A stretch of DNA of 35,162 bases. Origin: Desulfurococcales archaeon. GTDB lineage: Archaea > Thermoproteota > Thermoprotei_A > Sulfolobales > Ignicoccaceae. The DNA lies in assembly GCA_027081755.1 (NCBI GenBank), contig JALWJF010000138.1:1-35162 (forward strand), given 5' to 3'. Below the pieces are notes generated by a model. It was not told the DNA's origin, ran no database searches, and was given only the letters and a program-made list of their open reading frames with translations. Positions 15,490-22,917 of the stretch are shown one piece after another. Position numbers and translations under genes: made by a program. Numbering within the stretch: the stretch's first letter is position 1; each line of letters begins with the position of its first letter.

Positions 15490-16539
15490 ATGATGAGTGC
15501 GATTACCGCTCATATCTCTACATACCATAGAGAAAAGTTCCCAGAGTGGAAAGTAAAGCTAGTGAACGAAATAAAAGAGAAACTAAAGGAGAAGGACGTA
15601 ATACTCATGTTAGACTTGGTAGAGACACCGGCTAACATAGTTCACAAGTTCCGCAAGAAGTTTAGAAAGCAGTACCCAGACATGAAAACCGTGAAAAACA
15701 ACTTAATGAGAAAGGCATTTGAACAGAGCGGTATCAAGATGCCAGAAGAGATGGACAAGGCACTAACGGGCACAAACTTGTTCGTATTTACCAACGAGAA
15801 CCCCTTCGAAACCGCCCTAAAGTTCAGTAAGTTCAGCGTCCCGGCCCCCGCCAAACCTGGAGACATAGCTCAAACAGAGATAGTTGTTCCGGCCGGAGAT
15901 ACCGGTCTCAAGCCCGGACCAATATTGAGCACCTTCGGAAAACTCAAGATAAAGACTATGGTAAAAGGAGGAACTATCCACATAGCCAAGGACACCGTAG
16001 TAGCCAAGCCTGGAGACGTAATATCTCCAGAACTCGCAAGCTTACTTCAAAAGCTAGGCATAACTCCGATGGAAATAAGAATGAAGATCAAAGGAGCATA
16101 CGTAAAGAGCTTAAACAGGTGGATACCGGCAGAGGAACTAGTACTGGATTTGAAGAAGTACAGAGAGGAGGTACAGAAGGCTTACCAAGATGCACTGGCC
16201 CTAGGAGTGGCGATAGCGTACCCGGTGCCAGAGGTACTGGAGCTAAGCGTGGCAAAGGCCTTCCAGGACGCCCTCAAGGTCGCTGTGGAAGCCGGGTGGC
16301 TCACCAAGGAGTCTGCTCCTTACTTACTAGCAAAGGCACAAGCACAAGCCATGGCACTAGTGGCCGCTTTAGGAGACAAAGCGAAAGAGCTAGGAATAGA
16401 GGCTCCAGAGATCTCGGTCACTCCAGCCGCTCCAGCTGCAGAGGAGAAGAAGGAAGAGAAGGCAGAAGAGGAAGAAGAGGAGAAGAAGGAGGTATCCGAG
16501 GAAGACCTCAGCGCAGGTCTGGGAGCTCTGTTCGGATAA
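15490..16539 (+). CDS. rpl10: Acidic ribosomal protein P0 (L10)
   Basis: L10 domain (FPEWKVKLVNEIKEKLKEKDVILMLDL...KTVKNNLMRKAFEQ), P0-like extension and a C-terminal tail identical to L12. Confidence 0.97.
   Translation: MMSAITAHISTYHREKFPEWKVKLVNEIKEKLKEKDVILMLDLVETPANIVHKFRKKFRKQYPDMKTVKNNLMRKAFEQSGIKMPEEMDKALTGTNLFVFTNENPFETALKFSKFSVPAPAKPGDIAQTEIVVPAGDTGLKPGPILSTFGKLKIKTMVKGGTIHIAKDTVVAKPGDVISPELASLLQKLGITPMEIRMKIKGAYVKSLNRWIPAEELVLDLKKYREEVQKAYQDALALGVAIAYPVPEVLELSVAKAFQDALKVAVEAGWLTKESAPYLLAKAQAQAMALVAALGDKAKELGIEAPEISVTPAAPAAEEKKEEKAEEEEEEKKEVSEEDLSAGLGALFG
16421..16535 (+). repeat. Copy 2 of the 115-bp perfect direct repeat (in L10)
   Basis: Identical to 5416-5530. Confidence 0.97.
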
Positions 16540-16566
16540 CCAGAAAAAGTCTTTTCTCCCTCTTTT

Positions 16567-16580
16567 CCCACTCTCGTGGG
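16567..16580 (+). promoter_or_regulatory. Hairpin CCCAC-TCTC-GTGGG immediately upstream of hisC, preceded by a pyrimidine-rich stretch
   Basis: 5-bp perfect stem, 4-nt loop, 6 nt before ATG at 16587. Confidence 0.4.
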
Positions 16581-16586
16581 ATAAGG

Positions 16587-17633
16587 ATGAAGTGCCTCAA
16601 AAGAGAATGGTTAAAGAACATGAAGACCTACATGTTACCCCAAAAACCTAGGAATGTGGTTGCTAGACTTCACATGAATGAGAATCCTTATCCTCCTCCT
16701 CAGAGAGTTATAGAAGCTGCTAAGAAAGCAGTCGAAAATTGTAACCTCTACCCAGATCCCGAGAGGCTTTGGAAGTTAAGGGAATTGGCTGCGAAGTATT
16801 ACAAGGTTCCTGGACCCGAGTGGGTACTACCAACCCTGGGCTCTGATACCGCTCTAAGACTGACCTTCGAGTGCTGTGCACTAACCTCTGAAATAGCATT
16901 GCCATTTCCAAGCTTCCAAGCGTATCCAGCATTAGCTGGAGCAGCCGGAGCTAAACTAAACTATTACAATCTAGAAATTAGTGACGATAAATTTGTACTA
17001 AACATAGATGAATTCATTAAAGGAGCCAAGGGAGAATTAGCTGTAGTAGACAGTCCTAATAACCCTACAGGTTCGCTATTAGTTGATGAAAAAGGGTTAG
17101 AAAAACTAAGTAAAGCCTATCCAGCAGTACTGATAGATGAAGCGTACGCTGAATTTGCACCTTATGAACTCACCAGGGAGGTTGAGAAGTTCGCTAATGT
17201 ATTGTTTACCAGGACGATGAGTAAGGCGTTTGCTCTAGCAGGACTTCGGATAGGATTTCTAATATCGAATCCCGAATACATCGAAAACATCTCGAAAATG
17301 GTATTGCCATATGACATACCATCAGCGACAGTTGAAGCAGCTATAGCGGCTATGGAAGATCCCTCCTATTCGAGAGAGTATATAGAATACGTGAACGATG
17401 AAAAAAAGAAACTCAAAGAGAAAGTAGAGGCTCTAGGCTGGAAGGCCTTCGAAAGTTACACGAACTTCGTATTGGTTAAGGCTAAAGAGGGCGTTGTAGA
17501 TATGCTAAGAGAAAGGGGAATAATGGTCAGGAAGGTACCCTTAGGTAAAGAGTGGTTCAGAGTAAGCATAGGGAAGCCCGAAGAGATGAAATTGTTCTAT
17601 GAAGCAATAGAGGAACTAGCCGATAAGCTCTAA
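16587..17633 (+). CDS. hisC: Histidinol-phosphate aminotransferase-like PLP enzyme
   Basis: LHMNENPYPPPQRVIEAA, NLYPDPE, DSPNNPTGSL, LIDEAYAEFA, RTMSKAFALAGLRIGF. Confidence 0.88.
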   Translation: MKCLKREWLKNMKTYMLPQKPRNVVARLHMNENPYPPPQRVIEAAKKAVENCNLYPDPERLWKLRELAAKYYKVPGPEWVLPTLGSDTALRLTFECCALTSEIALPFPSFQAYPALAGAAGAKLNYYNLEISDDKFVLNIDEFIKGAKGELAVVDSPNNPTGSLLVDEKGLEKLSKAYPAVLIDEAYAEFAPYELTREVEKFANVLFTRTMSKAFALAGLRIGFLISNPEYIENISKMVLPYDIPSATVEAAIAAMEDPSYSREYIEYVNDEKKKLKEKVEALGWKAFESYTNFVLVKAKEGVVDMLRERGIMVRKVPLGKEWFRVSIGKPEEMKLFYEAIEELADKL

Positions 17634-18436: not shown

Positions 18437-20053
18437 TTGCAAAAAGCATTCGAACCAGCCCGAAGCAAGGTATTCGGTAACAAGAAGATCGGATTTCTGG
18501 AAGCCTTCAGTATAGGAGTTGGAGGAATGGTTGGAGGAGGAATATTTGCAGTACTAGGCTTAACTATATACTTGGCAAAAGGTGCAGCGCCCTTAGCATT
18601 CTTTATAGCGGGTTTGGTCGCCTTAATAACAGCTTACTCGTATGCCAAACTTTCCGTTCGATATCCTTCAGAGGGAGGGACTGTAGAGTTCTTGGTTCAA
18701 GGCTTTGGTAACGGATTTCTGGCAAGCTGGCTTAACGTGTTACTATTGGCTAGCTACATAATAATGCTGACCTTATATTCGTACGCCTTTGGAGCCTATG
18801 CAAGTTCAATGATCTTTGGAGGTGAAAATTGGTTTACGAGGACAGGGCTAGCGTGGACAGTGATTGCGTTCTTTACTTTCCTCAACGCCTTAGGAGCATA
18901 TATTGTGGGTAAGGCGGAGGATGCCATGGTACTATTCAAGGTGGGTGTTCTCCTATTGGTAGGAGGGGCAGGTCTCTTACTAGGCAATCCTAGCAAGCTC
19001 TCGCCCGCTAATTGGCCTCCGCTAGTTCACGTAATTGTGGGAGGTTTCATAATATTCTTGGCTTATGAAGGGTTTGAGCTGATAGCGAACGCTGCCAAGG
19101 ATATAAAAGATCCTGAAAAGACCTTACCCAGGGCGTTCTATGCAGCTGTAATCTTCGTAATGGCATTATATATACTAGTTGCTGCCGCTGCCGTAATGAA
19201 CTTAACTTGGCAAGAGGTAGTTAAGTACAGAGATTATGCCTTAGCCGTAGCAGCGGAGCCTATCTTCGGGAAATTAGGCTTCATATTGGTGGGTCTAGCA
19301 GCCGTTGCGTCAACCGCATCTGCAATAAATGCAACGCTTTATGGAACTACTAGGATAAGTTACGTTGTTGCGAAATACGGCGAACTACCGCCATCGGTTG
19401 GCAAAAAGGTCTGGGGATTGGCTACAGAAGGATTAATCGCAATAGCATTGGCAACGGCTGTAACAGTCGCTGTCTTACCTCTAGAGTCTATAAGCTTGGC
19501 CGGTAGCTTGGGCTTCCTAACAATATTTGCAGCTACAAACCTCGTTAATTTTAAGCTTAGAAAATATACAAAGGCCAATCCTGTGCTAGCGCTATTAGGC
19601 TTCCTCGCTTGTGTTACAGCAGCTATACTATTAGTGACGTTTAATGCTACTCCTGTTCAGCTAGAGGGCGCAATAGCTACTTTCCTAGGATCTGCACTCA
19701 TAGAGTTTTATGTATATAAAATTAGAAATATTAGGCTAAAACCAGTTATAGATAGAGAGCTCGAGACAAGACTAAAACTACTAGAAAGCTATGAAGAGTG
19801 GCTTCCAAAAGTAATAGACATCTTGAAGAAGAAACCTGAGGTTATAGATGTGAGGCTTGTAGGTGGATTAGCTGAAGGTAGAAAGGAAAGCAGTCATGAC
19901 GTTGACCTACTGGTGGAAGTGAAAGATGTTAAAGAAATAGAGGCATTTAGAGAAGGGGTTGAAAATGAAATAGCGAAGGAGTTAGGCGTTTCTAGGAGAG
20001 AATTACCATTACATTTACATATCGTGAAAAAGTCTAAGGTTTCACAAACTTGA
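18437..20053 (+). CDS. APC-superfamily amino acid permease with C-terminal nucleotidyltransferase-like domain
   Basis: SIGVGGMVGGGIFAVLGLTIYLAKGAAPLAFFIAGLVALITAYSYAKL plus about 12 TM segments; C-terminal LVGGLAEGRKESSHDVDLLVEV in the same frame. Confidence 0.88.
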   Translation: MQKAFEPARSKVFGNKKIGFLEAFSIGVGGMVGGGIFAVLGLTIYLAKGAAPLAFFIAGLVALITAYSYAKLSVRYPSEGGTVEFLVQGFGNGFLASWLNVLLLASYIIMLTLYSYAFGAYASSMIFGGENWFTRTGLAWTVIAFFTFLNALGAYIVGKAEDAMVLFKVGVLLLVGGAGLLLGNPSKLSPANWPPLVHVIVGGFIIFLAYEGFELIANAAKDIKDPEKTLPRAFYAAVIFVMALYILVAAAAVMNLTWQEVVKYRDYALAVAAEPIFGKLGFILVGLAAVASTASAINATLYGTTRISYVVAKYGELPPSVGKKVWGLATEGLIAIALATAVTVAVLPLESISLAGSLGFLTIFAATNLVNFKLRKYTKANPVLALLGFLACVTAAILLVTFNATPVQLEGAIATFLGSALIEFYVYKIRNIRLKPVIDRELETRLKLLESYEEWLPKVIDILKKKPEVIDVRLVGGLAEGRKESSHDVDLLVEVKDVKEIEAFREGVENEIAKELGVSRRELPLHLHIVKKSKVSQT

Positions 20054-21476
20054 CCTTAAGGTACTCTGGCAACTTATGCCAATGTTTCTTCACCAGATCC
20101 GGCATATGTTTCATTACCAAAGCCAGCATTTCCGTATCGCTAAGGGCAGTTAACCTCCCGTGTTCGAACTGCTTCATTACGTCTTTGTATATCGCTTGAA
20201 CTCTTGGATCCTTTTTGGACACCGCTTCATCTCCTTTCAAGTCGAACGTCTTGTTGATCCAGTATACAATTCCTGCTAAACCGGCGTATGGTGTTATGGC
20301 CACTCCGGGCTTTACACCAAGTATCCTTTCAGTATCGAAGGGTAAGTACGTCTCCGGATTCTTGAGCAGTCCATCGGCGTGTATACCGGCTCTTGTGGTC
20401 GCAAAGTTCCTGCCTACTAGCGGGTAGTAGGGCGGAACCTCATAGCCCAGCTCCTTGCGATAGTATTCAGCAATTTCAGTTATCACCTTAGGATTCATAC
20501 CGTCAAAGCCATGCTTGAGTTGTGCGTAAATGAATACTAGAGCTTCTATAGGGACGTTACCTGCCCTCTCGCCTATTCCTAGTAAAGTTCCGTTGTTAAG
20601 ACCCGCTCCATAGAGCCACGCGCTCATAGCGTTCGCGACGCCCAAATGGAAGTCGTTATGACCGTGGAACTCTAACCATTCACTGGGTACTCCGCAGACG
20701 TGTCTTAGCACCCAAGTGAGCTTAGGTATGCTCCTTGGAAGAGAAGCCTCTGCTATAGGTACTCCCACTCCTAAGGTGTCGGGATATCTAACCTTTATTG
20801 GCAGCCCATACATCTCGCTCAGTCTCATGAGCTTCTTCACGAAGGGTACTACAACTTCGAATATGTTTGCTCTTGTTATGTCCTCTAGGTGAACCCTAGG
20901 TATTATATCCATCTTTAATGCTTCTTCTACTACGCTCAGATACTTGTCAACTATCTTCGTCCTAGAACTTTTGAATTTGAAGTATATATGATAATCACTT
21001 ATGGATGTGAGTATTCCCGTTTCCTCTAGGCCGGCCTCTTTAACTAACCTTAGTTCTTCTTTCTTGGCCCTTATCCAACCAGTTGGTATAGGGTATTTGT
21101 ATCCGAGCTCCCTGACCCTCCTGACAGCTTCTCTATCTTTTTCAGTATATAAGAAGAATTCGGTAGTCCTTATCTTTCCTTGAGGTCCGCCTAGCTCATG
21201 TAAGTACTTATATAATCTCACTATTTGTTCTACTGTATACGGTTCTCTGGCTTGCTGTCCATCTCTGAACGTAGTATCAGTTATCCATATCTTGTCTGGA
21301 AGTTCTGTCGGCAGTATTATTCCATCAAAGAATATTCTAGGTACTTCTTTGAATGGAAATATAAACTTGTACAACTGTGGCTCGGGAGAGTCTATGACCT
21401 CATAGTCCGGTAGATCAAGCGCCTCTGACCTTACTTTTCTCAAAAATTCTCTTCTTAATTCGTGTAAATACGGCAT
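20034..21476 (-). CDS. HMGL-like/DRE-TIM acyltransferase: candidate Re-citrate synthase (isopropylmalate/homocitrate synthase family)
   Basis: WITDTTFRDGQQAREPYTVEQIVRLYKYLHELGG, EFHGHNDFHLGVANAMSAWLYGAG, GIGERAGNVPIEALV, AGIHADG; no leucine-binding regulatory domain apparent. Confidence 0.75.
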   Translation of the reverse strand: MPYLHELRREFLRKVRSEALDLPDYEVIDSPEPQLYKFIFPFKEVPRIFFDGIILPTELPDKIWITDTTFRDGQQAREPYTVEQIVRLYKYLHELGGPQGKIRTTEFFLYTEKDREAVRRVRELGYKYPIPTGWIRAKKEELRLVKEAGLEETGILTSISDYHIYFKFKSSRTKIVDKYLSVVEEALKMDIIPRVHLEDITRANIFEVVVPFVKKLMRLSEMYGLPIKVRYPDTLGVGVPIAEASLPRSIPKLTWVLRHVCGVPSEWLEFHGHNDFHLGVANAMSAWLYGAGLNNGTLLGIGERAGNVPIEALVFIYAQLKHGFDGMNPKVITEIAEYYRKELGYEVPPYYPLVGRNFATTRAGIHADGLLKNPETYLPFDTERILGVKPGVAITPYAGLAGIVYWINKTFDLKGDEAVSKKDPRVQAIYKDVMKQFEHGRLTALSDTEMLALVMKHMPDLVKKHWHKLPEYLKVKFVKP

Positions 21477-21519: not shown

Positions 21520-22917
21520 TTACACCAGCTTGCACTCAAGTCTCTTCTTGCCCCACAACCACTGCCATGATCTCTTTATCACACTCCACCACCACTGGAG
21601 GGCCTCTGAGATGTGAGAATAGTTCATAAGCGATATTGCAAGTCCAGCAGCAGCAACGTCTGCAAATGGCGTGAAAACTACTGTATAAAATGCATACAGC
21701 GTGTGATTTCCAGCCCAATAAATAGCTTGGAAGCCCAATAGAGCTGAAATCAGATAAAACGAAGCTAACCAAGGTGCTCTATAAAGCTTCTTTTTTCTCA
21801 GGGGTAATAATAAGAAGAATGCTATTATTGCTAATTGTATGACGGTAGGATTCGTATAGACTTCTAGGGTAGGCTTCACGGAAAGTGGAACCTTTCCCGT
21901 ACCTACAATCCAGTCCCAAGGGGTTGATGGAGGAGGACCAGAAGGTCTGCTCACTAAGAACCACTCTATCCCGCCAATCAAATTCTTCAGCCAGTTCTCG
22001 AACCCAAGACCTAGTATTATTGGTAAGGAAGTTAATGTTAATACTATGACAAAGGTCATAAGAGGTCTCAATACCGAGCCTGCTGGACTCTTCTTCCTTT
22101 CCAGCCAGAATACATATGCTAAGGGTATGAAGTAGAAGAACGCAGTGTACTTGCTACTAGAAGCGATAGCATAAAGCACCGTAGCCGTGTAGGGCTCGAA
22201 GAGTAATGCAGAGAAGGACATAACGGAAAATGATGCTGCATATATGTCTAGCATCGCCACCATGCTCATAGCCCTTAATGGTTCGTCAAAGTACAGGAGA
22301 AGCATGGATAGGAAGGATAGCCAAAATGAATCCGTAGCTATGAGCAAGGCTATCGGGACTATGAAGACTACTAAAGAGCCCAGCACCATACTAGGTATTC
22401 TCCAGTTCATGGGTACGTCTTTCTGCAAGATTTGATACATAATGAAGTACTTGCCGACTGGGGGGTGCTCTAAATTTAGGTAGTTTAAGATGCCCTCTTT
22501 GTCGGGGTACTTCCACCCCGGCTGCACTATTGATATATTGTACTTGTTCTTTTCTCTAATGAGCATCATTACCTTCGTAATGTTTTTTCCAATTGCATAT
22601 TCGGAATTCTTTATCTTCACGTATGGCTCCATCTTAATAAAGTCGAATTTTGACGAATAAAGCCCGTTAAATTTAGCTAGATCGACTACGCTTTTAAACT
22701 TCAGAGTGGCGTTAGATGATCGAGGATACATGTGGAAGGCTACACGAAGTAAATTTCGCGAAGCAGAAACATACCACGTTTCATCACTTATGTAAGTGTT
22801 TTTAATGCTAGATGAATTCAGTATCCTATATTCCGTAACGAAGAAGTTATATGAGAACGCGGATGAGAAGAATAAAATAATCAAAAACTTTATGATCGTG
22901 TATTTCCTCAACTTCAC
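21520..22917 (-). CDS. Membrane glycosyltransferase / dolichyl-phosphate-mannose mannosyltransferase-like (GT-C)
   Basis: N-terminal TM, extracytoplasmic DETWYVSASRNLLR and NLEHPPVGKYFI loops, then multiple TM segments; resembles PMT/GT-C fold. GTG start. Confidence 0.65.
   Translation of the reverse strand: MKLRKYTIIKFLIILFFSSAFSYNFFVTEYRILNSSSIKNTYISDETWYVSASRNLLRVAFHMYPRSSNATLKFKSVVDLAKFNGLYSSKFDFIKMEPYVKIKNSEYAIGKNITKVMMLIREKNKYNISIVQPGWKYPDKEGILNYLNLEHPPVGKYFIMYQILQKDVPMNWRIPSMVLGSLVVFIVPIALLIATDSFWLSFLSMLLLYFDEPLRAMSMVAMLDIYAASFSVMSFSALLFEPYTATVLYAIASSSKYTAFFYFIPLAYVFWLERKKSPAGSVLRPLMTFVIVLTLTSLPIILGLGFENWLKNLIGGIEWFLVSRPSGPPPSTPWDWIVGTGKVPLSVKPTLEVYTNPTVIQLAIIAFFLLLPLRKKKLYRAPWLASFYLISALLGFQAIYWAGNHTLYAFYTVVFTPFADVAAAGLAISLMNYSHISEALQWWWSVIKRSWQWLWGKKRLECKLV

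Follow-up and report, generated by a model that had tools for sequence, protein, structure and literature searches.

Why should an archaeal amino-acid permease carry, in the same reading frame, a domain that resembles a nucleotidyltransferase (NTase), and what might such a domain do for a transporter? The question is raised by one gene of a Desulfurococcales archaeon (assembly GCA_027081755.1, contig JALWJF010000138.1), located in a stretch of 35,162 nucleotides that was analysed as a whole and is called the window below. An earlier note on this DNA had read the gene as an APC-type permease with an NTase-like tail in one frame, a reading that is borne out by Pfam, by an AlphaFold2 model and by the recurrence of the architecture elsewhere. 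The features of the locus are as follows.

18437..20053, + strand: whole fusion gene, 538 aa, an open reading frame with TTG start and TGA stop
18482..19726, + strand: ApcT-like APC permease, residues 16-430, 12 TM (Pfam, PDB and Foldseek matches)
18938..18940, + strand: Lys168, counterpart of ApcT Lys158, the Na2-site lysine of TM5 (alignment with ApcT)
19745..20050, + strand: minimal nucleotidyltransferase (MNT) domain, residues 437-538, directly behind TM12 (PF01909, alignment with free-standing MNTs, AlphaFold2 fold)
19748..19774, + strand: first MNT helix IDxxLxxR, residues 438-446, the best-conserved tail segment
19862..19906, + strand: G476-G477-x10-D488-x-D490, putative nucleotide/metal-binding motif (exact GGx10DxD, the MNT spacing)
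20006..20020, + strand: P524-L-H526-L-H528, strand with the third catalytic position, occupied by His in this copy, followed by an invariant His (alignments)
20034..20053, - strand: tail-to-tail overlap of 20 bp with a convergent HMGL-like gene at 20034-21476 (ORF coordinates)

The TTG start is found at the identical position in an 86%-identical relative (L003), and the tail reading frame must be real because the other two frames across the tail hold 13 and 15 stops. The AlphaFold2 model of the 538-residue fusion has 12 TM helices, followed at about residues 440-531 by an alpha/beta domain with the topology of an MNT (mean pLDDT 86.6, pTM 0.88, with pLDDT about 86-93 across most of the tail). 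Within the tail, helices are predicted at 440-450, 452-464 and 501-516, and strands at 469-475, 489-495 and 525-531. A fold of some other kind had been named in the earlier note as grounds for dropping the claim; the fold that came out is that of an NTase.

The most obvious objection, which for a frameshift the earlier note had likewise listed as a refutation, is that a frameshift, a read-through or a chimeric assembly has fused two adjacent genes, particularly as the window stems from a draft metagenome-assembled genome (MAG) of 159 contigs. However, dozens of assemblies obtained independently have the junction, in frame and conserved; some of them are single-contig genomes (G020, G029 and G030; also G335 and G346), and this recurrence leaves the artefact practically no chance of being the explanation. 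The full-length fusion is present in 11 further genomes of the order, in five families and at 46-86% identity, and a contig scan of GTDB species yielded 80 independent loci, 63 of them tailed (26 have the active-site motif, 37 are degenerate). Both the conservation in related genomes and the wider occurrence of the architecture thus turned out in favour of the earlier note. The active-site tails come mainly from Crenarchaeota and Archaeoglobi, and the homologous tails that lack the site from loci labelled Aquificota, Thermodesulfobacteriota, 'Deltaproteobacteria', WOR-3, Thermotogota and Campylobacterota; for individual loci in the scan the MAG label may be wrong. By our own count the fusion occurs in 26 of the 59 genomes in the class of an Archaeoglobus MAG, and in the phylum to which a Hydrogenothermaceae MAG belongs, a match into the tail region was obtained for about 31 of 136 genomes. 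The distribution closer to the window is patchy: in a sample of 300 genomes from its phylum only 9 matches span the tail, these being confined to three families of its own order, and its genus is mixed, with two complete genomes that have distant unfused relatives only.

What kind of transporter carries the domain? Pfam AA_permease_2 (PF13520) matches residues 18-408 above the gathering cut-off (8.1e-35), and the nearest solved protein in the PDB is ApcT (MJ0609) of Methanocaldococcus jannaschii, at an E value of 1.4e-61. The two permeases share the LeuT fold (33% identity; Foldseek TM 0.91 for the permease model against 3gi8/3gia) and the Na2-site lysine, K158 of ApcT (PDB 3gia/3gi9) corresponding to K168 here. 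The latter position is Lys in 87 of 87 aligned family members, and Lys158 of ApcT has been implicated in proton coupling (PMC12764776). The permease reaches none of the NCBIfam equivalog cut-offs, and the gene is best explained as encoding a predicted proton-coupled, ApcT-like amino-acid transporter. Unlike the fusion, the deposited ApcT chain (444 residues) stops after TM12 and has no MNT domain, and the fusion family forms a separate clade. A second ApcT-like permease is encoded elsewhere in the source genome (G000:C3:677-1876, - strand); its identity to the permease part of the fusion is 41%, and the match between its 462-aa open frame and the fusion reaches residue 413 only.

The identity of the tail is established by several comparisons. 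Pfam NTP_transf_2 (PF01909) matches residues 457-535 in the whole protein (3.3e-6) and also the tail alone as query (1.5e-7), the fusion scoring 27.8 and 32.1 bits against a gathering cut-off of 21 bits; all 27 archaeal tails scanned match it as well. When the tail profile is compared with the PDB, MNTs rank on top, led by AF0614 (1ylq; 7e-7), with further NTases also among the matches. The MNT signature that the earlier note had proposed is present as an exact GGx10DxD at residues 476-490. Its placement of the domain boundary needs correction, since the tail is indeed an MNT but starts at about residue 437 rather than about 449. The fused domain aligns with 24 free-standing MNTs from genomes of the same order from their first residues onward, the IDxxLxxR helix of the fusion corresponding to xDTxLxRR in several of them. 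Because the match thus covers whole free-standing MNTs, the join must be end to end, soon after TM12 and near residue 437. Free-standing archaeal MNTs (AF0614 1ylq, Sulfolobus 2rff, L150/L151/L154) share with the fusion the whole-domain alignment, the first helix and the G[GS]x10DxD motif, but are soluble proteins. In a comparison with 22 free-standing MNTs the fused domains group together (SH-aLRT 94), and identity between a fused tail and its closest free-standing MNT reaches up to 50%. Free-standing MNT genes are abundant in several small genomes (G055, G020, G028 and G026; 12-15 matches per genome). MNT-profile matches also lie within larger frames, at G018:C12:31702-32013 (283 aa) and G048:C55:6354-6596 (498 aa), and may mark other MNT fusions.

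How much of the active site has survived? Among the archaeal tails, G476, D488, D490 and H528 are invariant in 34 of 34 at a mean identity of 40%, while position 477 is Ser in 29 and Gly in 5. The third position, 526, is divided between Asp (18) and His (16), and has switched between the two several times along the tree. In the window protein the third catalytic carboxylate of PF01909 MNTs is replaced by His526, within P-L-H-L-H, which agrees with the earlier remark that this residue was not obvious; about half of the archaeal relatives have Asp there. Glu occupies the position in 19 of the 24 free-standing MNTs and never in the fusions (Fisher p 4.5e-11, with relatedness ignored). No archaeal member departs from the strict G..DxD..H pattern, which speaks for retention of nucleotide/metal binding, or of catalysis, in these tails. 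In the free-standing MNT MntA, ATP-Mg is held by the DxD pair and the third Asp (D71) touches only the second Mg (PMC7641770), so that binding could survive where the third acid is missing. By analogy, the change at this position should harm transfer more than binding, and it is plausible that the domain of the window copy is, as had been suggested, inactive. The Ignicoccus-type fusions L002, L003 and L032 have GG in place of GS, lack the C-terminal helix WLxKAxxYKxL of most other archaeal fusions, and are among the fastest-evolving, most divergent archaeal tails.

The history of the family was followed in a tree of the permease part (IQ-TREE, careful run) rooted on a distant outgroup. All fusions fall into a clade of 74 rows (100/88), with ten close unfused archaeal sisters outside it, and the bacterial rows form one clade (99/96), which branches from within the archaeal Asp-Asp-His fusions. 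The fewest steps are needed if the fusion arose once in Archaea, passed once to Bacteria, where its active site was lost, and was truncated afterwards. The tail-less bacterial rows are mostly Campylobacterota and keep the first MNT helix as a stub, and the tree supports the view that many Campylobacterota shed the domain after the transfer and retained only this piece. For L085, another row without the tail, a frameshift may be responsible, as the match continues beyond the end of its ORF. Because the root rests on a distant outgroup, the gain of the domain is placed with less certainty than the bacterial clade, and whether the unfused archaeal sisters never gained the domain or have lost it would hinge on where that root is placed.

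In the bacterial tails D488 is present in 0 of 27, and the residues at 476, 490, 526 and 528 are scattered. Could these tails be an unrelated domain? Profile comparison, searches and structure all speak against it: hhalign of bacterial against archaeal tails gives 99.9% (E 1.7e-32), and 99.1% in a second comparison; the archaeal profile finds the tails within the bacterial genomes that carry them at E 1e-16 to 1e-24; and the predicted structure of one bacterial tail protein (pLDDT 87.4) has MNTs as its top PDB matches, although with a Foldseek probability of 1.00 the E value is weak (about 7e-3), making this match supportive only. Nor is neutral decay supported. Tail dN/dS is 0.01-0.20 in the archaeal and nearly all the degenerate bacterial pairs, with a maximum of 0.28, against 0.01-0.12 for the permease, these being values for close pairs, outside which the window's lineage lies with saturated dS. 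Because tail dN/dS is low, the bacterial tails without a site are maintained proteins and not decaying remnants. That the tail stays under purifying selection although the site is lost speaks for a conserved role of the domain beyond catalysis alone, and if bacteria manage without the nucleotide site, sensing would not be its sole purpose either. The best-conserved part is the first helix, with D439 in 100% of archaeal and bacterial tails and L442 in 97% and 93%, respectively; the IDxxLxxR helix is kept even in bacterial forms that lack the remainder of the tail.

The gene neighbourhood was also considered. In the window the fusion is flanked by an aldo/keto reductase gene and the HMGL-like gene at 20034-21476, an isopropylmalate/citramalate synthase type (Pfam HMGL-like, 1.2e-31), with ribosomal and ABC-transporter genes close by. 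A HEPN/MNT toxin-antitoxin context was rejected, as no HEPN gene occurs among the ten flanking ORFs scanned. No neighbourhood was found to be conserved beyond single lineages, and an operon clue to substrate or target was likewise discarded, the neighbours being lineage-specific; ilvD-like genes lie near six loci, four of which belong to one bacterial family, which is too weak. No separate MNT gene was found beside fused, tail-less or unfused relatives, in a search that detected all 63 fused loci as a positive control. Two other frames of the window deserve mention. The mechanical ORF at 16119-17633 (+) begins within the ribosomal protein L10 gene (15490-16539), and because its aminotransferase (HisC-like) match begins only at residue 183, the true start of that gene is probably well downstream. 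Adjoining the HMGL-like synthase gene, a 465-aa ORF that starts with GTG occupies 21520-22917 (-); Pfam gave it no match at E 1e-5.

By analogy, the nearest functional precedent is KimA, a K+ importer of the APC superfamily whose PPAT-like cytoplasmic domain is unrelated to the MNT and which is reported to be inhibited by c-di-AMP (PMC6994465). KimA/KUP carriers (PMC6994465; 8b70) resemble the fusion in that TM12 is followed by a C-terminal domain with a nucleotide-binding fold, located in the cytoplasm, but that domain is PPAT-like with a parallel five-stranded sheet and the substrate is K+, whereas the tail here is of the PF01909/pol beta type. MntA (PMC7641770) has the MNT fold and a GSx10DxD motif in common with the fusion, but is a separate small protein paired with a HEPN toxin, while the fusion's MNT is covalently attached to a transporter. 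A C-terminal extension is also found in archaeal APC permeases of 711-717 aa from related genomes (L018, L019 and L020, for example), where it is long and soluble and, judged by eye, not an MNT. These permeases may resemble universal-stress-protein fusions.

What, then, does the tail do? The explanation that we favour, tentatively and at somewhat less than an even chance, is that the tail has a regulatory role in the cytoplasm, binding Mg-nucleotide in archaea and persisting in bacteria as a module without catalysis. Once, in Archaea, a permease gene would have been joined end to end with the gene of a free-standing archaeal MNT. The domain would lie in the cytoplasm because LeuT-fold carriers of this kind have both termini inside, as reported for LysP. 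In archaea it would bind Mg-nucleotide at the cytoplasmic face through G476/G477 and D488/D490, and the bound or unbound state would be passed to the transporter through the IDxxLxxR helix behind TM12, such that amino-acid uptake is tuned to the nucleotide or energy state of the cell. In the window copy, with His526 for the third carboxylate, nucleotide transfer would probably be weak or absent. Members of the bacterial branch no longer have the nucleotide site, and the domain may have stayed in them as a non-catalytic regulatory or docking module.

Perhaps the archaeal domain is instead an active NMP-transferase that nucleotidylates (e.g. AMPylates) the transporter or a partner and thereby switches uptake, the activity having been lost in bacteria. 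The invariant archaeal DxD fits an active enzyme as well as it fits a sensor, the G[GS]x10DxD spacing is exact, G, D, D and H528 never vary among archaeal members, about half of these still have an acid (Asp) at the third position, and MntA, with the same motif, is a proven AMP-transferase (PMC7641770). Considering, however, that the third acid is never Glu, that it is His in the other half including the window, that Asp and His have switched repeatedly, that the flanking ORFs scanned include no HEPN gene and that bacterial homologues keep the domain but have given up the whole of the active site, we regard an enzyme as unlikely, if well short of negligible. Its extension into a covalent switch, in which the archaeal MNT would modify permease or partner according to amino-acid or energy state and bacteria would have made a pseudoenzyme regulator of it, seems to us quite doubtful.

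The tail might also be a structural or assembly module, acting in stability, dimerisation or protein docking, with conservation of the archaeal nucleotide site a secondary matter. In its favour, the bacterial tails keep fold and purifying selection without an active site, no form of the protein, not even a truncated one, has given up the conserved IDxxLxxR helix, and many Campylobacterota manage without the domain. But retention of G476, D488, D490 and H528 in all archaea at 40% tail identity would then go unexplained, and this possibility appears rather unlikely. The regulatory, nucleotide-binding reading has its own difficulties, in that the Ignicoccus-type tails are divergent and without the C-terminal helix, and no pathway is suggested by a conserved set of neighbouring genes.

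KimA is already an example of an APC-superfamily carrier with a cytoplasmic regulatory domain, and the fusion proteins must already be in databases as automatic annotations. No description of the permease-MNT combination was found in the open-access full-text literature, where absence is no proof that it is undescribed. As far as we found, the new aspect is a pol beta-type NTase on an amino-acid transporter, a domain type unreported there. Conservation of the family reaches from Crenarchaeota to Campylobacterota, and the archaeal join together with the bacterial versions that lack the site points to a possible nucleotide-linked control of amino-acid uptake. On one scaffold, nature offers a series from no domain, through MNT with Asp-Asp-Asp, MNT with Asp-Asp-His and a domain without the site, to a stub only; both control of an ApcT-type transporter by a nucleotide site and the passage from enzyme domain to pseudoenzyme are therefore testable in this family.
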